Source of the DNA: Haloferax elongans ATCC BAA-1513
Lineage (GTDB): Archaea > Halobacteriota > Halobacteria > Halobacteriales > Haloferacaceae
Direction: 5' to 3'
Length of the DNA stretch: 64,000 bases
Assembly (NCBI RefSeq): GCF_000336755.1
Contig: NZ_AOLK01000011.1
Location: 265,440 to 329,439, forward strand
Of the stretch, positions 10,541 to 35,765 are shown piece by piece. Every line of letters starts with the position of its first letter. Positions within the stretch are counted from its first letter, which is position 1. A program made the translations under genes and the position numbers. Below the pieces are notes generated by a model, which saw only the letters and a list, made by a program, of their open reading frames with translations, made no database searches and was not told where the DNA came from.

Positions 10541-11944
10541 ATGAAGGAATACCAGACTATCACCGAAATCAGCGGCCCGCTGGTGTTCGCCGAGGTTGAC
10601 GAGCCGATCGGTTACGACGAAATCGTCGAAATCGAGACGCCGCAAGGCGAGACCAAGCGTGGACAGGTCCTCGAATCGAGTGAGGGCCTCGTCGCGATTC
10701 AGGTGTTCGAAGGAACCACCGGTATCGACCGAAACGCGTCCGTCAAGTTCCTCGGCGAGACGCTCAAGATGCCCGTGACCGAGGACCTTCTCGGTCGCGT
10801 GCTCGACGGGTCCGGCCAGCCTATCGACGGCGGCCCGGAAATCGTCCCCGACGAGCGCCGTGACATCGTCGGCGCAGCAATCAACCCGTACTCCCGCGAG
10901 TACCCCGAGGAGTTCATCCAGACTGGCGTCTCCGCCATCGACGGCATGAACACCCTCGTCCGTGGTCAGAAGCTCCCCATCTTCTCCGCGTCGGGGCTCC
11001 CCCACAACGACCTCGCACTGCAGGTCGCCCGTCAGGCGACCGTGCTCGAAGAGGAAGGCGACGAAGACTCCGAATTCGCTGTGGTCTTCGGCGCGATGGG
11101 TATCACGCAGGAAGAGGCAAACGAGTTCATGGAGGACTTCGAGCGCACGGGTGCACTCGAGCGCTCCGTCGTCTTCACGAACCTCGCGGACGACCCCGCA
11201 GTCGAGCGGACGGTCACGCCGCGTCTCGCCCTCACCACGGCCGAGTACCTCGCGTTCGACAAGGACTACCACGTCCTCGTCATCCTGACCGACATGACCA
11301 ACTACTGTGAGGCGCTCCGTGAGATCGGTGCGGCTCGCGAAGAGGTCCCCGGTCGCCGTGGTTACCCGGGTTACATGTACACTGACCTTGCGCAGCTCTA
11401 CGAGCGCGCAGGTCGTATCGAGGGTCGCGAAGGGTCTGTCACGCAGATTCCCATCCTCACGATGCCGGGTGACGACGACACGCACCCGATTCCGGACCTG
11501 ACCGGCTACATTACGGAAGGTCAGATCTACATCGACCGCGACCTCAACTCGCAGGGCATCCGCCCGCCGATCAACCCGCTTCCGTCCCTGTCGCGTCTGA
11601 TGGACGACGGTATCGGTGAGGGCCTCACCCGCGAGGACCACGCTGACGTGTCCGACCAGATGTACGCGGCGTACGCAGAGGGTGAGGACCTCCGCGACCT
11701 CGTGAACATTGTCGGTCGCGAGGCACTCTCCGAGCGTGACAACAAGTACCTCGACTTCGCAGAGCGCTTCGAAGAGGAGTTCGTCGACCAGGGCTTCGAC
11801 ACGAACCGCACTATCGACGACACGCTCGACATCGGGTGGGACCTCCTCTCGATGCTGCCGAAGTCCGAGCTCAACCGTATCGACGAAGAGCTCATCGAGG
11901 ACTACTACCGCGAAGAAGCCGAGTCCGTCGAAGCAGACGCCTAA
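10541..11944 (+). CDS. atpB: A-type ATP synthase regulatory subunit B
   Basis: A 467-residue nucleotide-binding but non-catalytic subunit. It starts [20 protein letters not shown]. The Walker A loop of the catalytic partner is replaced by [13 protein letters not shown], as expected for B subunits, while the interface segment [20 protein letters not shown] is retained. It alternates with AtpA in the hexamer. A longer in-frame frame extends upstream into atpA, but the Met at 10541 matches the family N-terminus. It is followed by a small hairpin with a T-rich tract and then by an unrelated regulatory gene before the last ATP synthase subunit. Confidence 0.96.
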
Positions 11945-11970
11945 CTCGGCGACTTCGAGTTCTTTCTTTC
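11944..11970 (+). terminator. Weak hairpin with pyrimidine tract after atpB
   Basis: ACTCG at 11944-11948 pairs with CGAGT at 11956-11960, and TCTTTCTTTC follows at once. Archaeal termination mainly needs the T-rich run, so this could end the main ATP synthase transcript before the LOV regulator. The stem is only five base pairs. Confidence 0.35.
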
Positions 11971-12080
11971 GGACGCAGTCTCTCCCGAGAGCAGGCGCTT
12001 TCGTCGGCGTTCACCCGCGAGCACACTGTCGAAGCCTCCCGAGAGCGAGGTTCCTTGTGCCATTAGCGTGTGGATGGAGT

Positions 12081-14066
12081 ATGTCAATTACTTCGCCGCA
12101 GGCGCGTGTCTTCTCTGTCGTCGGCGACGACATCCGAGCACGAGTCGAACGCGAACTCTCGTCGTTCGACGTCGAGGCCGTCGACTCGGTCGACGCTGTC
12201 GAGCGACGACTCGCCGAAGATTCGGCGGATTGCGTCGTCATCGACACGGACTCACCAGCAACAGTGACAGCCATCAGCGAGACTGGTGTTCCGGTCGTCG
12301 TACTGGTTTCCCCGGACGCCGACCTCTCGCCGGGGGACGCACTCGATGCCGGTGCAGAAGACGTCGTCCCCGTCGTCGAGTCTAACCTCTTCGACCGATT
12401 GGGTGCCCGCGTCGCGAGCGTCGTGTCGTGGCACGATGGTCGTGACGAGGCGACGGCCAGAATCACCGAAGAGTTGAAAGAACGGGCGATGGACGAAGCG
12501 CCCGTCGGAATCACGATTTCGGACGGTTCGCTCCCCGACCACCCGCTCGTCTACGCCAACGACGCGTTCGAGTCGATGACGGGGTACACTGTCGAAGAGG
12601 CGCTGGGTCGAAACTGCCGATATCTGCAGGGAAACAAGACGAACCAAGAGCGCGTCGCCGAACTTCGCCGCGCAATCGATGCCGAGGAGTCGGCGTCTGT
12701 CGAACTGCTGAATTATCGGCGAGGCGGCTCGACCTTCTGGAATCGCGTCGATATCGCGCCGCTTCCGGGGCCGGATGGCTCTGTGACCCATTACGTCGGT
12801 TTCCAGACGGACATCACAGAGCGCGTCCGCGCCGAGCAGGCCGCAGAGCGGTACGCTGCCCGCGTCGAAGAAGAACGCGCGCGACTCCAGAATCTCGTCG
12901 ACCACATCGAAGGGCTGCTCGAAGATGTCACGAGCGCGCTCGTCCGCGCGGAGACGCGCGCGGAACTCGAAACCACGGTGTGTGAGAAAATCGCCGCGTC
13001 ACCGTCGTTCGAGGGCGCGTGGATTGGCGACGTCGACCTCTCTCCGAAAGAAATCGTGCCGAACGAGTGGGCCGGTGCGGCAACGGCCACACTCTCGGAA
13101 CTTCGAATCGACCGCGACGACGACACCGACCCAACCGCGCTCGCCGCCACGACCGGCGAGGTACAGTCAGGGACGGCTTCGGACGGCAGACTCCACGCCG
13201 ACGTGTCGCTGCCATTTACGAACGTTATCGCCGTCCCGCTCGTCCACCGTGACACGATGTACGGTGTGTTGAGCGTGTACGCGACAGAGTCGGTCGACGA
13301 GTACGTACAGGCTGTCTTCGGAACGCTCGGCAGAGCAGTTGGGGCCGCCATCGACGCGTTCGAGAGCCGACGGACGCTCATGTCCAACGAGGTTCTCGAA
13401 CTCGAACTCGAAATTACGGACTCGACACAGCCGCTCGCCACGCTCGCCACCTCGTGGGGATGTCGGCTCGAATACGAGGGGTCGGTTCCGCACGACGACG
13501 GGACGGTGAGCCTCTTCGTCTCGACGACGCCTCCAATCGCCGGTGGGGATATTGACACCGACGAAACGTCTGAATCCCGTGCTGAGGGTATCGTACGCGT
13601 CTCACAACTCCCGCGAGGAGACGGCGCCGGACTGTTCGAAATCGTTCTCGCGTTCAATTCACTTTTGCACCTCGTCGCCGACGCGAGCGGTCGGATCTCG
13701 GACCTCGAAGTCGATTCCGACGGGACCCATCTGACGGTCGTTGTCCCGGACCGTGCACTCGGTCGGTCGCTTCTCGACGACCTGAAAGCGGTCGCACAGG
13801 GAGTCGAACTCCGAGCAGTCAGGGACCGTGCGGTCCCGCCGCAGACCCAGCGAGAGTTTGCCGCGAGCGTCGGGGCAGAACTCACCGACAGACAGCGAAC
13901 CGCGCTCCAACTGGCGTATCTCGGCGGCTTCTTCGAGTGGCCTCATGGCGTGAAAGGCGACGAACTCGCCGAGGCGATGGGCGTCTCTCGACCGACGTAC
14001 CACCAGCACCTTCGCGCAGCAGAGCGAAAGCTGGTCACTCGATTTTTCGAGAGCGAGGTTCCGTAG
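12081..14066 (+). CDS. Bat-type HTH regulator with REC-like, LOV and GAF domains
   Basis: A 661-residue regulator of the bacterio-opsin activator class. Domains in order: a degenerate receiver-like domain (about 8-115, acidic residue in CVVIDTD near 55), then a PAS domain of the LOV type (about 138-250). The LOV domain has the flavin-adduct signature GRNCRYLQG with Cys179 and the usual NYRRGGSTFWN and HYVGFQTDITER motifs. A coiled linker, a GAF domain (about 290-430), a Bat N-terminal-like beta domain and a C-terminal HTH_10 (LTDRQRTALQLAYLGGFFEW ...) complete it. The family is known to activate transcription. The intact cysteine predicts blue-light sensing through FMN, which is inference. 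It sits between atpB and atpD in the same direction. The ATG at 12081 gives the full receiver-like fold. Confidence 0.88.
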   Translation: MSITSPQARVFSVVGDDIRARVERELSSFDVEAVDSVDAVERRLAEDSADCVVIDTDSPATVTAISETGVPVVVLVSPDADLSPGDALDAGAEDVVPVVESNLFDRLGARVASVVSWHDGRDEATARITEELKERAMDEAPVGITISDGSLPDHPLVYANDAFESMTGYTVEEALGRNCRYLQGNKTNQERVAELRRAIDAEESASVELLNYRRGGSTFWNRVDIAPLPGPDGSVTHYVGFQTDITERVRAEQAAERYAARVEEERARLQNLVDHIEGLLEDVTSALVRAETRAELETTVCEKIAASPSFEGAWIGDVDLSPKEIVPNEWAGAATATLSELRIDRDDDTDPTALAATTGEVQSGTASDGRLHADVSLPFTNVIAVPLVHRDTMYGVLSVYATESVDEYVQAVFGTLGRAVGAAIDAFESRRTLMSNEVLELELEITDSTQPLATLATSWGCRLEYEGSVPHDDGTVSLFVSTTPPIAGGDIDTDETSESRAEGIVRVSQLPRGDGAGLFEIVLAFNSLLHLVADASGRISDLEVDSDGTHLTVVVPDRALGRSLLDDLKAVAQGVELRAVRDRAVPPQTQREFAASVGAELTDRQRTALQLAYLGGFFEWPHGVKGDELAEAMGVSRPTYHQHLRAAERKLVTRFFESEVP

Positions 14067-14228
14067 TCGACCCCGCTCGATTCGATCCAATCCGATCCGA
14101 CTCCGGGCGAACGTGTTGGACTGCAACCACGTCGTCGCGGTCCCACCCGCCGTCTGCCCTGTTATCGCCCCGGACAGCGGGCCAGACAGTAAAAGATTAA
14201 CACCCCAGGCGAACAACCCTCGCCAAAG

Positions 14229-14909
14229 ATGGCCGAAGACGTCAAGCCGACCCGCAAGAACCTGATGGCGATCGAAGATCGCATCGAACTCTCTGAGCGG
14301 GGTCACGACACGCTCGAACAGAAGCGGGACGGCCTCATCATGGAGTTCATGGACATCCTCGACCAGGCACAGGACGTGCGGGCGAACCTGAACGCGGACT
14401 ACGAGCGCGCCCAGAACAAGATCAACATGGCTCGCGCCATGGAGGGTGACGTCACGGTTCGCGGTGCCGCCGCAGCGCTGAAAGAGTACCCCGAGATTAC
14501 GACGCAGTCGAAGAATATCATGGGCGTCGTCGTCCCGCAAATCGAATCCTCGCGCGTCAAGAAGAGCCTCGACCAGCGCGGCTACGGTCTGCTCGGTTCT
14601 TCGGCCCGCATCGACGAGGCTGCCGACGCCTACGAGGAACTGCTCGAATCCATCATCCTCGCCGCGGAAGTCGAGACGGCGATGAAGAAGATGCTCGAGG
14701 AGATCGAGACGACGAAGCGCCGTGTCAACGCGCTCGAATTCAAGCTGCTTCCCGAACTCTACGAGAACCAAGAGTACATCGAGCAGAAGCTCGAAGAGCA
14801 GGAACGCGAGGAAATCTTCCGCCTCAAGAAGATCAAAGCCAAGAAGGAAGAAGAAGAGAAGGAAGCGCGAGAGGCCGAACAGGCCGCCGAAGCTGCTACT
14901 GCGGACTAA
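14229..14909 (+). CDS. atpD: A-type ATP synthase subunit D (central shaft)
   Basis: A 226-residue rotor shaft subunit with two long antiparallel helices at the ends: an N-terminal [20 protein letters not shown] and a C-terminal [20 protein letters not shown] region. The central part is shorter and globular. The last 35 residues ([20 protein letters not shown]) form a very charged tail that exceeds the minimal family core and is common in halophiles. It is separated from the rest of the ATP synthase genes by the LOV regulator and has its own candidate promoter (AGTAAAAGATTAAC about 30 bases upstream), so its transcription may be independent of the main operon. Confidence 0.94.
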
Positions 14910-16894: not shown

Positions 16895-19102
16895 ATGGCA
16901 CGGGTGTACGCAATTGCCAGCGCGAAAGGCGGGGTTGGAAAAACGACGACGACAGCCAACCTTGGAACCGTCCTCGCGATGGCCGGTCACGAGGTTGTCG
17001 TCATCGACGGTGACCTCGGGATGCCGAATCTCGCTGGTGCCCTCGGTGTCGACCCAGACGGGGCGACACTTCACGACGTCCTCAACGACGACGTAGACAT
17101 CAAGTCGGCTATTTACGAGGGGCCGGCGGGTCTCGACGTCGTCCCCGGGTCGAACGCGCTGGAAGCGTTCGCCCGAACTGACGCCAAAGGACTCGAAGCG
17201 GCTGTCGACCAACTCGACGACTACGACATCGTCATCGTCGACACCGGTGCGGGTCTGAGCAACGACACGTTCGTCCCTCTGAAGTTCGCCGACGACGTGG
17301 TGCTCGTCACGACGACCGAACGAGAAGCACTCGGCGACACCGAAAAGACGCGACAACTCGCCGAGCGCATCGGCGCGTCAATCGTCGGTGCCGTCCTCAC
17401 CCGTGTCGACGAGTCGAACCCGAACGCCGAGGTGGTCGCGTCGATTCTCGACGCCGGCGTTGTCGCCGTCGTCCCCGAAGACCCGGCTATTCGTGACGCC
17501 CTCGACAGTCAGGTTCCGGTCGTCCTCCGCACGCCTGACAGTATCTCGGCGGCAGGCTACCGCGCGCTCGCGGAGGCGCTCACCGGGGAGCCGGTTCCTG
17601 TTCCCGACGAGACTGGAGCAGCCACCGACGACGACCACGCGACTGAAACGACAGAACAGGACGTCAAGGAGTCAGGGTCGACGCAGGTCGTCGCGACTGA
17701 CTCCTCTTCCGCTCCCGACACCGAACCTGAAACTGACTCCGAAGCGGAACCCGCGCCGTCGTCGGACGCCGGTCGGACCACTTCTGAACCGGAGTCGATG
17801 GATGTCTCGGAATCGGAGCCAGCGACGTCGTCCGACAGTCCGTCGGAAGCCGAACCGACGCCGGTCGCCTCAGAGGACACCGTCGACACGGCCGAGTCGA
17901 CCGAGGACCCGCTTGCGCCAGACGCAGACGCGGCCGAGTTCGAAGCCGAAGATACCACTGACGAGTTCGAGGCTGCAGACACCACTGACGAATTCGAAGC
18001 CGCAGATACCACCGACGCGACGGACTCGCACGCGCAGGAAACGTCGGATGCGGACATCGACGACTCTACTGAGGACCATACTGTCGAGGACTCCCCGGCA
18101 GAAACGGGCGAGTCGTCGACGCCGACTCCTGAGGCGGCTGGCGACCCGACTCCCGAACCAGACTCGACGGATGCACCGGATGACCCGCTTGCAGCTGATG
18201 TGTCCGAGGACCCGTTGGCAGCCGAGTCGACCGAGGACCCGCTGGCGGGCGATGCACACGAAGACCCGTTAGCAGTCGATGCAGTCGATGAAGACCCACT
18301 CGCTGCCGACGCGACGGACTCGGAATCACTGGTCGAGGCGTCGAAGGCGGCGGCCGACGAGGTGCTGAACAAGAACAAGCGAGACGTTGAATCGGAGCCG
18401 ACTGCGGAGACGGAATTGGGAGCGGAGCCAGAACCGGAGCCGACTGCTGAGCCGGAGCCGACTGCAGAACCAGAACCGACTGCAGAACCAGAACCGACGA
18501 TGGAACCGGAGTCGACGACTGAGTCCTCCCCGGAACGGCAGCCGACTGACGATTCGGCCTCGGCGACTGACTCGTCGGACACGCCCGAGCCAATCGTCGA
18601 AGACGACATCATCGTCGCACCGGTCGAAGAGGAACACGTCGAAGACGAGCCCGAAGACCCGACAGACACTGGCTCGCAGGTGCCGTTCGCTGCCGGAAGT
18701 GACGGCAAGCCCGCGGTACGTGACGAGCCGACGGCGGAGCCACAGAACCCGCCGACGGAGACGCAGGACCAGACGGTACCGACCCGGGACCAGCCACGGC
18801 AGTCCGACCCCGCCGACTCCCGTGCATCTACTGACCCGACAGCATCACCCGAGCAGACTGCACCCTCTGAACCCACCGAACAGTCGGGTGAACCGCTCGT
18901 CCAGGACCCGTCGAGTGCGGGTGAGGACGAACCCCTCGTCGCAGAGGCGGAATCGGAACCGGACACCGACGACGCGGACGCGACCGGCGAGGACGAAGAA
19001 GAGGGCGTCTACACGACGACGCTCGTCGAAGAAATCGACTCGCTGGACGAAGAGGGCGACGACAAGAAGAAGAAGGGCTTCTTTAGCCGCTTCCTCGGCT
19101 AA
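16895..19102 (+). CDS. minD4: MinD4-type ParA/MinD ATPase with long acidic repeat tail
   Basis: A 735-residue protein. Residues 1 to about 235 are a complete MinD/ParA ATPase: deviant Walker A KGGVGKTTTT at 11-20, switch segment VVIDGDLGMPNL, and DYDIVIVDTGAG. The remaining ~500 residues are disordered and acidic. They contain internal repeats: three EFEAxDTTD units, about six EDPLA-type units and four EPTAEPEP-type units. The end is a basic-amphipathic patch (DDKKKKGFFSRFLG) like a membrane-targeting sequence. In Haloferax volcanii the MinD4 protein with such a tail oscillates along the cell and positions archaella and chemosensory arrays (established). Orthology here is inferred from architecture and gene context. 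A TATA-like CATTTATGG lies about 35 bases before the ATG. Confidence 0.88.
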   Translation: MARVYAIASAKGGVGKTTTTANLGTVLAMAGHEVVVIDGDLGMPNLAGALGVDPDGATLHDVLNDDVDIKSAIYEGPAGLDVVPGSNALEAFARTDAKGLEAAVDQLDDYDIVIVDTGAGLSNDTFVPLKFADDVVLVTTTEREALGDTEKTRQLAERIGASIVGAVLTRVDESNPNAEVVASILDAGVVAVVPEDPAIRDALDSQVPVVLRTPDSISAAGYRALAEALTGEPVPVPDETGAATDDDHATETTEQDVKESGSTQVVATDSSSAPDTEPETDSEAEPAPSSDAGRTTSEPESMDVSESEPATSSDSPSEAEPTPVASEDTVDTAESTEDPLAPDADAAEFEAEDTTDEFEAADTTDEFEAADTTDATDSHAQETSDADIDDSTEDHTVEDSPAETGESSTPTPEAAGDPTPEPDSTDAPDDPLAADVSEDPLAAESTEDPLAGDAHEDPLAVDAVDEDPLAADATDSESLVEASKAAADEVLNKNKRDVESEPTAETELGAEPEPEPTAEPEPTAEPEPTAEPEPTMEPESTTESSPERQPTDDSASATDSSDTPEPIVEDDIIVAPVEEEHVEDEPEDPTDTGSQVPFAAGSDGKPAVRDEPTAEPQNPPTETQDQTVPTRDQPRQSDPADSRASTDPTASPEQTAPSEPTEQSGEPLVQDPSSAGEDEPLVAEAESEPDTDDADATGEDEEEGVYTTTLVEEIDSLDEEGDDKKKKGFFSRFLG

Positions 19103-19309: not shown

Positions 19310-21076
19310 TTACATCGACTCGGGAGCCTCGACGCCGATGATATCGAGCGCGTTGGCTACCGTGTGCTTCGAGGATTCGACGAGTGCGAGGCGGGCCGCG
19401 GCGACTTCCTCGTCGTCGGCCGAGAGGACCGGACACTCGCGGTAGAACCGGTTGAACACTTCGGCGAACTGGCGGGCGAACGTCGCAATGGTGTGGGGTT
19501 CGAGGTCGTCGGCCGCCTCCTCGACGACGGCGGGGAAACGCGCGATGACGCGCAGCAGTTCGCGCTCTGCGTCTGTGTCGAGGACCGACGGGTCGACGTC
19601 GCTCGCATCGAGACCGGCGGCGGCCGCCTCGTCGGTGATGCCGCAACAGCGCGCGTGGACGTACTGGATGTACGGCGCGGACTGCGCCTCGAAGTTGAGC
19701 GCCTGGTCCCACTCGAAGGTGATGGACTTGGTGGGCTGTTTGGAGACGATGTCGTAGCGAACCGCGCCGATACCGACCTGGCGAGCGATGCGCTCGATGT
19801 CGTCTTCGTCGAGGTCGTCGTTGCGGATGCGGTCTTCCATGCGCGTTTCGACTTCCTCGCGGGCGCGGTCGATTGCCTCGTCGAGCAGGTCGTCGAGCAT
19901 GACGCCGGTCCCTTCACGGGTGGACATTCCGAGACCGCCGGGGAGGTTGACCCACGAGAAGATGACGTTCTCCAGTTTGTCTACGTCGTTGCCGAGGAGG
20001 TCGAGGGCGGCACGAAGTTGGCCAGCCTGCAGTTTGTGGTCCTCGCCGAGGACGGTCACGGCGCGGTCGTAGTTATCGAACTTCCACTCGTGGTGGGCGA
20101 GGTCACGGGTCGTGTAGAGAGAGGTGCCGTCCGAGCGGAGGAACACGAGGTTCTTTTCGATATCGTACTCGCCGAGTTCGAGTTGCCACGCGTCTTCCTC
20201 GTAGACGGCGTTATCGGTCTCTTTGAGGCGCTCTGCGAGGTCGCGGGTACGCCCGTCGAACATGAAGCGCGTCTCTTTGACGAACTCGTCGAACTCCGCG
20301 GGGAGGCGGGCGAGACACTCGCGCATACCGCCGAGCACTTGGTCGACGACGGTCTCGACGCGGGCGTAGGTCTCTTCGTCGCCTTCTTCGATACCCTGCA
20401 GAATCTCCGTAATCTCGGCTTCCGCGGCCTCGACCTCGTTGGGGTCGGCTTCTTCGAGGTAGGCGTTGCCCTTCTGGTAGTACCGCACGAGGTCGTATTC
20501 GATGCGGTCGCGGTCGGGTTCGCTGTCGAGGTCGTCCTCGTCGAACGTCTCGTAAGCCCACGTGAAGACGGCCATCTGGCGACCGGCGTCGTTCACGTAG
20601 TAGTGTCGTTCGACGTCGTTGCCAGCGAAATCCAGCAGATTGGCGACGGCGTCGCCGACGATGGGGTTGCGGGCGCGGCCGACGTGGACCGGGCCGGTCG
20701 GGTTCGCACTCGTGTGCTCGACGACGACGCTGTCGCCGGTCGAGGGGAGACGGCCGTATTCACCGTCTTCGGCCGCAGCGGTGAGCGTGTCGTCGTAATA
20801 GGCGTCGGTTACGTGGAAGTTGACGTACGGTCCCTGCGTGTCGACCGCGGCGAGGTAGTCGTAGCCGTCGACAGAGATTTCCTCGGCGATGTCGGCGGCG
20901 ACCGACGGTGGCGCAGCGCCGACGACCCCGGCCAGTCGGAACGCCACGCTGGAAGCGAGTGTCGCGGGTACGTCTTCCGGTGGCTCCTCGACCCCGAGGT
21001 CGTCGTCCGGCAGGTCGAGCGACGAAAGCGCCGCAGAGAGCGCCGCTTCGACCTCCTCACGGAACTGTCTGAACAT
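19310..21076 (-). CDS. argS: Arginyl-tRNA synthetase
   Basis: A 588-residue class I synthetase. The N-terminal Add-1 type domain is at residues about 1-110. The HIGH-type signature appears as [20 protein letters not shown], and the KMSKS-equivalent loop as [16 protein letters not shown]. The anticodon-binding DALR-type helical domain closes the protein ([17 protein letters not shown]...). The ATG at 21076 is chosen because it gives the standard N-terminus, and upstream codons lack similarity. It is convergent with the small membrane protein gene, 30 bases apart. Confidence 0.95.
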
Positions 21077-21268
21077 GCTCACGGGTTCTCGGCAGATGGC
21101 TAAAGGCCTTTCCGAACCGGTTCGGGGCGGGCCAACTGCGACCCTCGCTGGCGACTGACTGTCGCACCATCGGGACACCGTCTGAACTACCTTACTAGTT
21201 AGGTAGAACTGGTATGCTGACACCGGACGAAGGAATGAATGAGGCAGGAGAAACCTGCCACCCCAACA

Positions 21269-21421
21269 ATGAGCCGATGCAACTACTGCGACGCGTTCGT
21301 ATCGAGCAACTTCATACGTGTGTTCGGTGACGACAAAGGGCGCGTCTTCGCCTGTCCGAACTGTTCGGCGAACGCCGGCGTCTCCCAAGTGAGCGCCGAG
21401 CGAAAGGCGGCGGGTCTCTAA
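21269..21421 (+). CDS. Small DUF7563-like zinc-finger protein, 50 residues
   Basis: The protein [20 protein letters not shown] continues to [14 protein letters not shown], giving a four-cysteine CxxC...CxxC zinc knuckle. Haloarchaeal genomes carry many such one-domain zinc micro-proteins (DUF7563 type), some needed for biofilm or stress phenotypes. Which process this one serves is unknown. The ATG at 21269 starts directly before the first metal-binding pair, and ten further in-frame residues upstream look non-conserved. Confidence 0.65.
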
Positions 21422-21717: not shown

Positions 21718-22431
21718 ATGTCAGAATCGGCAGTCGCCAGCGAGGTCGGGTACGACGAGTTGGCAACGCTGAAACTCGTTGCCCTCGACGGCGGGCGCGC
21801 TGAACCTGTCAAGGTCTCTTGTTCTGGACTTGCAGACAGGTTAGACGTCTCTAACCAGACGGCGTCGCGTCGCTTGCAACGCCTCGAAGAAGGTGACTAC
21901 ATCGACCGAGAGGTCGTCTCGGACGGCCAGTGGATTACGATAACCGAGGCCGGCGAATCCGCACTCCGCCGAGAGTACGCCGACTATCGACGTATCTTCG
22001 AGACGCCGTCGATGGTCGTCCTCGAAGGCGAGGTGACCGGCGGCATGGGCGAAGGTCGCCACTACATCTCGCTTCCGGGATACATGGAGCAGTTCACCGA
22101 GCGACTGGGTTACGAACCCTTCCCGGGAACGCTGAACGTTCGACTCAGCGACGATGCAATTCGTGCCCGCGCCGGGATGTCCGCACTCGACGCCGTCCCA
22201 ATCGACGGCTGGGAAGACGACGAGCGGACCTTTGGTCCGGCGACTTGCTACGCCGCGGTCGTCGAAGCGGACGACGAGACGTACGACCCGGTCCACATCA
22301 TCGTCCCCGAGCGAACCCACCACGACGAGTCGCAACTGGAGATTATCGCGCCCGACAAACTCCGTGACGAACTCGGCTTAGAAGACGGCGACACCGTCAC
22401 GGTCCGCGTCGAGGAGGTCGAGACGGAATGA
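21718..22431 (+). CDS. ribK: RbkR: HTH regulator fused to CTP-dependent riboflavin kinase
   Basis: A 237-residue two-domain protein. Residues about 10-85 form a winged helix ([20 protein letters not shown]). Residues about 95-237 form the archaeal CTP-dependent riboflavin kinase with the signatures [19 protein letters not shown] and [10 protein letters not shown]. The kinase makes FMN. Proteins with this fusion are known as RbkR and also control riboflavin gene transcription. Start 21718 is preferred over the in-frame ATG 27 bases upstream because that codon lies inside the promoter dyad. It overlaps ribB by four bases, so sensing, control and synthesis are coupled. Confidence 0.93.
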
Positions 22432-23111
22432 GCCGTTCCGCGGAGACGGACCTCGACCCCACAGAGCGTGTCGTGGAGGCGTTCCGTGCGGGTGAGCCGG
22501 TCCTCGTCCACGACTTCGACGACCGCGAGGGCGAGACGGACCTCGTCTACCCCGCAGGTGCAGTCACGCCGGCCGAAGTCGCCCGCATGCGCAACGACGC
22601 CGGTGGTCTCGTCTGCGTCGCGCTGCCGGACGACGTGGCCGAAACGCTTGGGCTGCCGTTCATGGACGACGTTCTCGACCACCCGGCTGCGGCCGCCCAC
22701 GACCTCGCGTACGACTCGCGCTCGTCGTTTTCCTTCACGGTGAACCACCGAGATTCCTTTACCGGAATCACTGACCGCGACCGGGCGATGACCATCTCTC
22801 GACTCGCTCCTGTGGCCGAACTAGCCCGCGCGGGCGACTACGACGCCGACGACTTCGGCGGCGAGTTCCGTGCGCCCGGCCACGTCCACCTGCTTCGCGG
22901 CGCGCCTAACCTCCTCGACGACCGACAGGGTCACACCGAACTCGGTCTCGCACTCGCCGACCATGCCACGCTGCCGCCCGCCGTGGTCGTCTGCGAGATG
23001 CTTGACGACGAGACGGGTGCGGCCCTCTCGAAAGCCGACGCCCGCGAATACGCGGCGCGACACGACCTCGCGTTCGTCGACGGCGACCGCCTGCTTTCGG
23101 ACCTCTCCTAG
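22428..23111 (+). CDS. ribB: 3,4-dihydroxy-2-butanone-4-phosphate synthase
   Basis: A 227-residue enzyme that converts ribulose 5-phosphate to the four-carbon precursor of riboflavin. Family motifs are in order: [14 protein letters not shown] (metal and substrate acids), [29 protein letters not shown], and the [10 protein letters not shown] and [10 protein letters not shown] segments. It is a stand-alone enzyme with no GTP cyclohydrolase II fusion, as usual in archaea. The start overlaps the end of ribK (ATGA). It is convergent with the epimerase gene. Confidence 0.95.
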
Positions 23112-33809: not shown

Positions 33810-35765
33810 ATGTCGCGAGATAGTTCATCCATTCGCGAACGTATCTACGCAACGTTCGCAGACGAGTCGCTCGACTTCGAAGCGTCCGTACAGACGGCAC
33901 TCGAGTTCACTGCCGACTATCTCGGTGTCGAGTACGGCTTTCTGACCCGAATCGAAGACGGACAACAGCGAATACTGCAGGCGGTCGGCTCCCACGAACT
34001 CCTCCAACCCGGTGAGTCGTGTCCACTGGAGCAGGCCTACTGTCGGCGCACGATACAAATCTCGGGGACGCTAAGCGTCCAGGACGCCGCGGTGTCGCCG
34101 GAGGTCTCCACGACAGCCTTCGAAACGTTCGAGCTCGGGTGTTACATCGGCACGAAAGTGGTCGTCGACGGCGAGGTGTACGGCACTGTCTGCTTCGGCG
34201 ACTCGAACTCACGTGGCGAGTCGTTTTCCGAATCCGAGGGCATGCTGGTCGAACTCGTCGGGCAACTGGTCTCTCAGGTACTCGAACGGCGAGCCTATCA
34301 GCAGACGCTCGCAGACCAGAACCGACAGCTCGAAACCGAACGACAGACGTTCGAGGAAATCGCCGAGACGACGTTCGACGTGATTTACCGAATCGACCGC
34401 GGCGGCGTGTTCACCTACGCCTCTTCTTCGGTCGAACGCATCATCGGTTACTCACCCGAGGAACTGGTCGGAACGCCGTTTGCTGAGCATATCTGTGAGT
34501 CGTCGCTTCCGAGAACTGTCGATGCATTCGACCAGCTGCTCGATGGCGAGTCGGTCGAACATCTCGAAATCGAGTTTGAGCGAAAGGGCGGAGAGACGGT
34601 CATCCTCGAAGTCAACGCTCGACCCATCTACAACGGCGGTGACGTCGAACTGATTCAGGGCGTCGCCCGTGACATCACCAATCGCGTCGAACGGGAGCGC
34701 GAACTCCGACTCCAACATCGTGCCCTCGAGGATACGAACGTCGGCATCACCATCGCCGAAGCCGCCGAACCGGAGTTCGTCATCACCTACGCCAACGAGG
34801 CGTTCGAAGCACTGAGCGGCTATTCTCGCGACGAAATTATGGGCCGTCCGTATCGAGACTTCTTCGTCGAGGATGCCGGTCCCGAGGAGGCGGCCGATAT
34901 CCGGGAGGCGCTGGTGTCGGGTGACTCCAGTGTGTTCGACCTACTCGTCACTCGGCAGGACGACACACCTCTCTGGTGTCGGACGTCTATCAGCCCGGTC
35001 ACCGGCGATTTCGACGAAGTGACACACTACGTCGGATTCCACGAAAACGTCACCGAGGAAAAGCGAACTGTCCGCTTGGTGGAACTTCTCAACAGAGTTC
35101 TCAGACACAACTTGCGAAACAGTATGAACGTCATCCTCGGGAACATCGAGTTGTTGAACGACCCGGAGATGTCGTCCATAGCTGTCGGCCGTATCCGTGA
35201 ACGCGGACAGGACTTGGTTCGATTGAGTGAACGCGCTCAGGAACTGAAGCGGTACGCACATCGGGAACGCGACCCCCAACGTCTCGACCCGAAAGAACTC
35301 GTCGCTCGTATCGTCGAGCAACACGAGGAGTCGAACCCACAAGCCACAATCACCGTCGACGTGCAGTCCGACCGCGGTATCTGCGCCGGGAGCGAACTCA
35401 GTCGCGCGCTTTCGGAACTCGTGGCGAACGCGATTTCGCACCACCCAACCGAGTCGGCCCACGTGTCGATATCGGTCGCCGACGCTGGAGACCAGATACG
35501 AATCGAAGTCGTCGACGACGGTGAGGGAGTCTCACCAAGTGAGACCTCGTTCGTTCAGATGGGGCGCGAGACAGATTTAGAGCACGGGAGCAGTATGGGT
35601 CTGTGGCTGGTCAACTGGATTGTCACTCGATACGGCGGGTCGTTCCAAATCGGTCCGGCCGACGAGGACAACCGGGGGACGCGTGCGACGATTCTCGTCC
35701 CGTCTATCGACCCTGAGACCAGTGTCGAAGCGGCAGCGAAGCCATCGACGGCACTCTTCTGGTAA
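33810..35765 (+). CDS. GAF-PAS-PAS sensor histidine kinase
   Basis: A 651-residue cytosolic kinase. GAF (about 20-165, with a Cys-containing GESCPLEQAYCRRTI segment) is followed by a linker coiled coil, PAS1 (about 185-300) and PAS2 (about 305-425). The dimerisation helix with phosphoacceptor His is VLRHNLRNSMNVILG, and the HATPase domain has VDDGEGVSPSE and HGSSMGLWLVNWIVTRYGG. The N box reads ELVANAISHH, a variation on the usual NAxEH. PAS2 has LOV-like flanking motifs (WCRTSISPVTG, HYVGFHENVTEE), but the adduct motif is GRPYRDFFV without cysteine, so it should not be photoactive by the LOV mechanism. No response regulator is adjacent. Confidence 0.9.
   Translation: MSRDSSSIRERIYATFADESLDFEASVQTALEFTADYLGVEYGFLTRIEDGQQRILQAVGSHELLQPGESCPLEQAYCRRTIQISGTLSVQDAAVSPEVSTTAFETFELGCYIGTKVVVDGEVYGTVCFGDSNSRGESFSESEGMLVELVGQLVSQVLERRAYQQTLADQNRQLETERQTFEEIAETTFDVIYRIDRGGVFTYASSSVERIIGYSPEELVGTPFAEHICESSLPRTVDAFDQLLDGESVEHLEIEFERKGGETVILEVNARPIYNGGDVELIQGVARDITNRVERERELRLQHRALEDTNVGITIAEAAEPEFVITYANEAFEALSGYSRDEIMGRPYRDFFVEDAGPEEAADIREALVSGDSSVFDLLVTRQDDTPLWCRTSISPVTGDFDEVTHYVGFHENVTEEKRTVRLVELLNRVLRHNLRNSMNVILGNIELLNDPEMSSIAVGRIRERGQDLVRLSERAQELKRYAHRERDPQRLDPKELVARIVEQHEESNPQATITVDVQSDRGICAGSELSRALSELVANAISHHPTESAHVSISVADAGDQIRIEVVDDGEGVSPSETSFVQMGRETDLEHGSSMGLWLVNWIVTRYGGSFQIGPADEDNRGTRATILVPSIDPETSVEAAAKPSTALFW

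Follow-up and report, generated by a model that had tools for sequence, protein, structure and literature searches.

A LOV-Bat gene between atpB and atpD

In the window of Haloferax elongans (the whole stretch of DNA analysed here, 64,000 nt), an open reading frame on the plus strand (12081-14066), which translates into a protein of 661 amino acids denoted LOV-Bat, is located between the ATP synthase genes atpB and atpD. An earlier note on this sequence had placed the gene between atpB and atpD in the same direction, which is indeed the arrangement, with all three genes on the plus strand. The features of the locus and of the encoded protein are the following.

10541..11944, plus strand: atpB, upstream flank
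11943..11971, plus strand: possible terminator 3' of atpB, a stem and T-rich tract; weak, with one found against 1.9 expected in shuffles
12046..12059, plus strand: putative LOV-Bat promoter element, about 22-35 nt upstream of the ATG, read from the sequence; AACTTCCTTACG in congeners
12081..14066, plus strand: LOV-Bat regulator, 661 aa, with receiver-like, LOV, GAF, BAT and HTH_10 domains
12081..12440, plus strand: probable receiver-like N-terminal domain, residues 1-120 (AlphaFold2 model and alignment A1)
12471..12830, plus strand: LOV domain, residues 131-250 (Pfam, PDB matches, alignment A1)
12615..12617, plus strand: codon of the adduct-position Cys179 (translation; Cys in 35 of 35 atp-locus orthologues)
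12816..12947, plus strand: long coupling helix 3' of LOV, residues 246-289, at the signalling-helix position (AlphaFold2 model)
12954..13355, plus strand: GAF domain, residues 292-425 (Pfam)
13389..13862, plus strand: BAT domain (PF15915), residues 437-594 (Pfam)
13881..14039, plus strand: HTH_10 DNA-binding domain, residues 601-653 (Pfam; dN/dS near 0 in most close pairs)
14187..14204, plus strand: atpD promoter element CAGTAAAAGATTAACACC (aCAGTAAAAGgTTAAC), near-identical between genera whether the insert is present or absent
14229..14909, plus strand: atpD, downstream flank

The motifs singled out in the earlier note, GRNCRYLQG with Cys179 (residues 176-184), FWN (219-221) and HYVGFQTDIT (237-246), are all present in the translation, and the LOV, GAF and HTH_10 domains that it listed were recovered, but the receiver-like N-terminal domain and the BAT domain had been overlooked. 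The Pfam matches are PAS_9 at residues 142-247 (2e-22), BAT at 437-594 (2e-30), HTH_10 at 601-653 (1.5e-20) and a marginal GAF_2 at 292-425 (2e-6; 28.5 bits against a cut-off of 28.6 bits), in the GAF, BAT, HTH_10 order of the Bat family, with GAF_2 just short of its cut-off. For residues 1-120, which have no Pfam match, AlphaFold2 predicts alternating strands and helices, and we read this domain, from the model and the sequence, as probably receiver-like.

The LOV fold is recovered both by phmmer, in which LOV domains are the top PDB matches of the stretch from residue 131 to 267 (E 3e-34), and by Foldseek comparison of the AlphaFold2 model, which has low confidence around residues 132-181, with LOV domains (TMt up to 0.88 among the matches listed). 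The NCBIfam models for YtvA (1.6e-43) and LOV-histidine kinase (6.5e-39) also match this stretch, under their full-length cut-offs. The sequence GRNCRYLQ, which occurs once in all six frames of the window, agrees with the LOV-photoreceptor motif GXNCR(F/Y)LQ, including the cysteine at the adduct position. In alignment A1, N178, R180, Q183, N211, N221 and Q242 are invariant among 16 aligned sequences; from knowledge of LOV structures, we take these to be the flavin-contact positions. Thus, profiles, structure matches, flavin-contact residues and the relatives described below support the assignment of LOV-Bat as a LOV sensor joined to a Bat-type activator, as the earlier note had proposed. The top structural and sequence matches, the LOV-histidine kinase of Brucella and YtvA/YF1, share the LOV core but have a kinase or STAS output, in contrast to the HTH_10 output of LOV-Bat. 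Another gene in the window (33810-35765) encodes a GAF/PAS/PAS histidine kinase the PAS domains of which are weakly LOV-like, without the adduct motif.

The adduct-position cysteine and selection on LOV-Bat

The cysteine at the adduct position is present in all 35 atp-locus LOV-Bat copies examined; the loss of this residue in close orthologues, which the earlier note had named as evidence against its reading, was not seen. The classic Bat copies beside other rhodopsin genes carry Pro, His or Ala at this position and branch apart from the Cys-type atp-locus copies in the tree, and LOV-Bat, with Cys179, falls outside this Cys-less Bat-LOV* subgroup. Judged by sequence, haloarchaeal Bat proteins divide into putative Cys-type and Pro/His-type sensors. 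BAT-LOV* of Halorubrum hochstenium, likewise a bacterio-opsin activator with receiver, LOV-like, GAF and HTH regions, has been shown to bind flavin, but it is a Pro-type protein that responds to flavin reduction (PMC4682037), whereas the atp-locus copies have Cys and form a separate branch. The P188C replacement in this Pro-type protein gave no 390-nm adduct (PMC4682037), and therefore the presence of a cysteine is not in itself proof of adduct chemistry. However, the six contact positions are invariant as well. The canonical archaeal LOV domain ALovD-1 is also a haloarchaeal Cys-LOV, with Tyr in GXNCRxLQ and a demonstrated photocycle, but it is part of a PAS/histidine-kinase protein rather than a DNA-binding regulator (PMC12202551).

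In eight close Haloferax pairs, dN/dS is 0.11-0.46 for the whole gene, 0-0.11 for the LOV domain and 0-0.07 for HTH_10 in seven of the eight (0.32 in the remaining pair, which has few changes), with looser values for the N-terminal domain and the GAF/BAT parts than for LOV and HTH_10. Purifying selection thus acts on LOV-Bat, most strongly on its LOV and HTH domains, and the reading of the gene as a pseudogene was rejected on these values. It is conceivable that LOV-Bat senses flavin redox or oxygen, or something else via GAF, leaving Cys179 unused for light, given that related Pro-type BAT-LOV* proteins respond to flavin reduction (PMC4682037) and that the classic Bat copies in this comparison have Pro, His or Ala. 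We consider this unlikely: the cysteine and the contact residues are kept in every atp-locus copy, the LOV domain is under the constraint just described, and photoactivity is established for a canonical archaeal LOV domain that has Tyr in this motif (PMC12202551). Blue-light sensing through Cys179 is accordingly the preferred reading.

The phototrophy cassette and its remnant in Haloferax

Synteny was surveyed in 148 genomes of the family, including 15 of Haloferax. LOV-Bat is located 114-204 nt 3' of atpB in all 15 Haloferax genomes and directly after atpB also in members of six other genera, in which the gap contains, in this order, LOV-Bat, bop (bacteriorhodopsin, PF01036), crtY (lycopene cyclase) and often brp/blh (beta-carotene dioxygenase, PF15461), followed by atpD. 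In seven sister-clade genomes, bop is next after LOV-Bat, and crtY is present too in six of the seven stretches fetched. In the tree of 45 LOV-Bat proteins, the Haloferax copies (100/99) lie inside a 100/100 clade with three cassette-keeping genera, one of which is Salinigranum. LOV-Bat alone remains between atpB and atpD in Haloferax, and a search of the 15 genomes for rhodopsin found none in 14, including that of the window; the exception is H. mucosum, with a rhodopsin at a different locus. The cassette in sister genera, the tree position and the missing rhodopsin together support the conclusion that Haloferax lost the pump genes bop, crtY and brp from this locus and kept the regulator. Because LOV-Bat is linked to bop in the sister genera and this genome has no rhodopsin to regulate, LOV-Bat would be a homologue of Bat whose target today is a different one.

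The location of bop between atpB and atpD has been published previously (PMC7755889; PMC1885257), and a lone bat at the identical insertion point in the bop-less Haloferax strain pws11 is described in PMC7755889, where its role is called unknown. As far as the accessible text of these two reports extends, the LOV cysteine, selection, sites and candidate targets are examined here rather than there. PMC7755889 also cites a bacteriorhodopsin in H. larsenii RG3D.1; the genome of H. larsenii JCM 13917, the nearest named relative (95% identity), shows none. In one genus (L094), bop is directly upstream of atpD and atpB is on a separate contig, so the bop-atpD linkage outlasts a split of the atp cluster.

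LOV-Bat appears, from the sequence upstream of its ATG, to have its own promoter; a sigma-70 promoter scan is not meaningful for archaea. The T/C-rich tract 3' of atpB is present in congeners too, and in many relatives the atpB-atpD gap, about 150-300 nt, is empty. The junction resembles a boundary of transcription that could take up a cassette without harm; polar effects on atpD may occur.

A candidate LOV-Bat site at the bop and zinc-finger promoters

A palindrome, CCnAACTAGTTnGG, is found at -54 to -66 (about 57 nt) of the bop start, with 0-2 mismatches, in 22 LOV-Bat cassettes. Its ACTAG core appears to resemble the known bop upstream activator sequence (UAS) of Halobacterium. In the stretches preceding LOV-Bat, crtY, brp and atpD, the palindrome is at background, mostly with 4-6 mismatches, and was rejected as an element of these promoters. 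Genome-wide, the exact palindrome occurs in 11 places in the seven sister-clade genomes, namely six at bop, four at a zinc-finger gene and one at a DUF7835 gene (genome G064); the bop site of the seventh genome (G076) has one mismatch. The four zinc-finger sites, each before a DUF7563 gene, represent all four Salinigranum genomes. An exact search with the reversed pattern gave no match in the seven sister genomes, and the exact palindrome was also missing from 15 genomes without LOV-Bat. As bop and LOV-Bat often disappear jointly, the latter control is weaker; the zinc-finger site in bop-less Haloferax is free of that problem. The rhodopsin locus of H. mucosum (L078) has neither LOV-Bat nor the palindrome (five mismatches upstream of bop), and LOV-Bat control of this rhodopsin was rejected.

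The orthologous zinc-finger gene is preceded by TACCTTACyAGTwAGGTA or a close form in each of the 15 Haloferax genomes, with a TATA-like element at constant spacing 3' of it. The stringent Haloferax pattern matches one locus per genome (14 of 14), which is always the zinc-finger promoter. In the window, this promoter region is organized as follows.

21190..21203, no strand assigned: candidate LOV-Bat site CCTTACTAGTTAGG; in its stringent form, the sole match in the genome
21211..21216, plus strand: TATA-like GGTATG, 8 nt 3' of the palindrome; spacing conserved
21269..21421, plus strand: DUF7563 zinc-finger gene, 50 aa, predicted target (orthology; HVO_0325 by gene order)

The Haloferax form is CCTTACyAGTwAGG and the sister form is CCCAACTAGTTGGG; since the two differ, the identity of the site is inferred from promoter orthology. 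Single-mismatch genome matches to the sister form number three, near the two obtained with the reversed-pattern control, so that the cross-genome pattern is relied on instead. The patterns had been taken from the same data in which they were later counted, having been chosen after the first examples; the sites in other families were found afterwards. In L192 and L193, which belong to another family, LOV-Bat sits immediately beside the palindrome and a DUF7563 gene. The proposed link between regulator and site draws on co-occurrence, promoter orthology and the negative controls.

The zinc-finger gene is located between the divergent argS and rbkR-ribB. In H. volcanii, rbkR and ribB are HVO_0326 and HVO_0327 (PMC8305020), which makes the zinc-finger gene HVO_0325 by gene order; an HVO_0325 deletion strain had no phenotype under the conditions tested (PMC6562870). 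A literature search on HVO_0318 found nothing. Small zinc-finger proteins, Brz and others, accompany Bat proteins in Halobacterium (PMC2253796), and the combination of a Bat-type regulator with a small zinc-finger partner, as in Bat/Brz/Brb of Halobacterium salinarum (PMC2253796, PMC3184054), is therefore a known theme. However, Brz carries a single CPxCG and a single CxxxH motif; the protein here belongs to DUF7563, has two CxxC motifs and is itself the predicted target, and the bop cluster of Halobacterium salinarum is located elsewhere, unlike the atpB-atpD cassette. Directly 3' of the predicted target, rbkR, for a riboflavin kinase/regulator that makes FMN, the LOV cofactor, and ribB (21718-23111) are found in 15 of 15 Haloferax genomes; in Salinigranum, no such linkage is apparent within 1.5 kb. 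The leader of the zinc-finger gene (21230-21268) contains an inverted repeat just 5' of the ATG (GGCAGG..CCTGCC; GCGG..CCGC in others; AGCAG..CTGCT in L128) that is perhaps a conserved hairpin; RNAalifold called no consensus hairpin in this 5' leader. A forward open reading frame of 579 aa at 19364-21103 was discarded as antisense to argS.

The zinc-finger palindrome could belong to another regulator, such as RbkR (21718-22431), the gene for which follows the zinc-finger gene with ribB throughout Haloferax, or to another HTH_10 protein, given that the genome encodes several GAF/HTH_10 proteins. This appears quite unlikely, as the Salinigranum zinc-finger gene keeps the palindrome although rbkR is not found within 1.5 kb of it, bop is preceded by the same palindrome, genomes without LOV-Bat lack it, and the stringent Haloferax form is present at one locus only. 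The suggestion of the earlier note that light could tune ATP synthase is not supported. The same-strand order atpB-LOV-Bat-atpD in all 15 Haloferax genomes would be expected of a regulator placed in the operon to tune atp genes, but atpD is served by a promoter of its own that is conserved whether or not the insert is present, the gap is empty in many relatives, there is no candidate palindrome upstream of atpD or LOV-Bat, and the single stringent site of the genome lies before the zinc-finger gene, 7 kb away, which makes such tuning very improbable. LOV-Bat is positioned between atpB and atpD by descent, since this gap houses the LOV-Bat/bop/crtY/brp cassette in relatives. Nor does LOV-Bat resemble a decaying, functionless leftover of that cassette, as the missing bop, crtY and brp and the lack of a known phenotype could imply: it is intact in 15 of 15 genomes, dN/dS is below 1 in all eight pairs with LOV and HTH most constrained, and the predicted target site is conserved in 15 of 15, so that we regard simple decay as extremely improbable.

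We propose, with a probability of roughly 0.6, that LOV-Bat is the surviving regulator of a lost phototrophy cassette, which in response to blue light acts through a LOV adduct on the zinc-finger gene. The proposal builds on the observed architecture, cassette ancestry, Cys conservation, purifying selection and palindrome distribution; the flavin adduct, DNA binding by LOV-Bat and light-driven activation of transcription are its predicted steps. Blue light would drive formation of an FMN-Cys179 adduct in the LOV domain, the signal would travel via the linking helix and the GAF/BAT region to HTH_10, and a LOV-Bat dimer would bind the palindrome immediately 5' of the TATA box in the target promoter. 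The main target in relatives would be bop, with the DUF7563 zinc-finger gene added in Salinigranum; in Haloferax, that gene would be the sole recognisable target left. Whether this amounts to a one-promoter blue-light circuit, in which LOV-Bat controls a single DUF7563 gene acting on further functions and a photoregulon has outlived its proton pump, we judge to be evenly balanced. The Cys-type split, the selection pattern and the one-site regulon seem to be new. If the proposal holds, it would provide a clear example of a regulator retained after the loss of its main target, and it possibly answers the question, raised in PMC7755889, of why bat is retained without bop. Light sensing in H. volcanii, a leading archaeal model, becomes cheaply testable, with one regulator, one predicted target, for which (as HVO_0325, by gene order) a deletion strain already exists, and one DNA site.

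Several further gene contexts were observed. In L187 and L188, a perfect CCCGACTAGTCGGG palindrome and a gene for a secreted-looking DUF4397 protein come after a Cys-type LOV-Bat. In other haloarchaeal families (L189, L191, L196 and L197), a Cys-type LOV-Bat is directly upstream of phytoene synthase, which suggests light control of carotenoids; a desaturase-like gene is also adjacent in L191, L196 and L197, and L189 also has the palindrome. Finally, the window encodes, at 16895-19102, a MinD-type ATPase that ends in a very long C-terminal tail, which is acidic and contains repeats such as EFEAADTTD.
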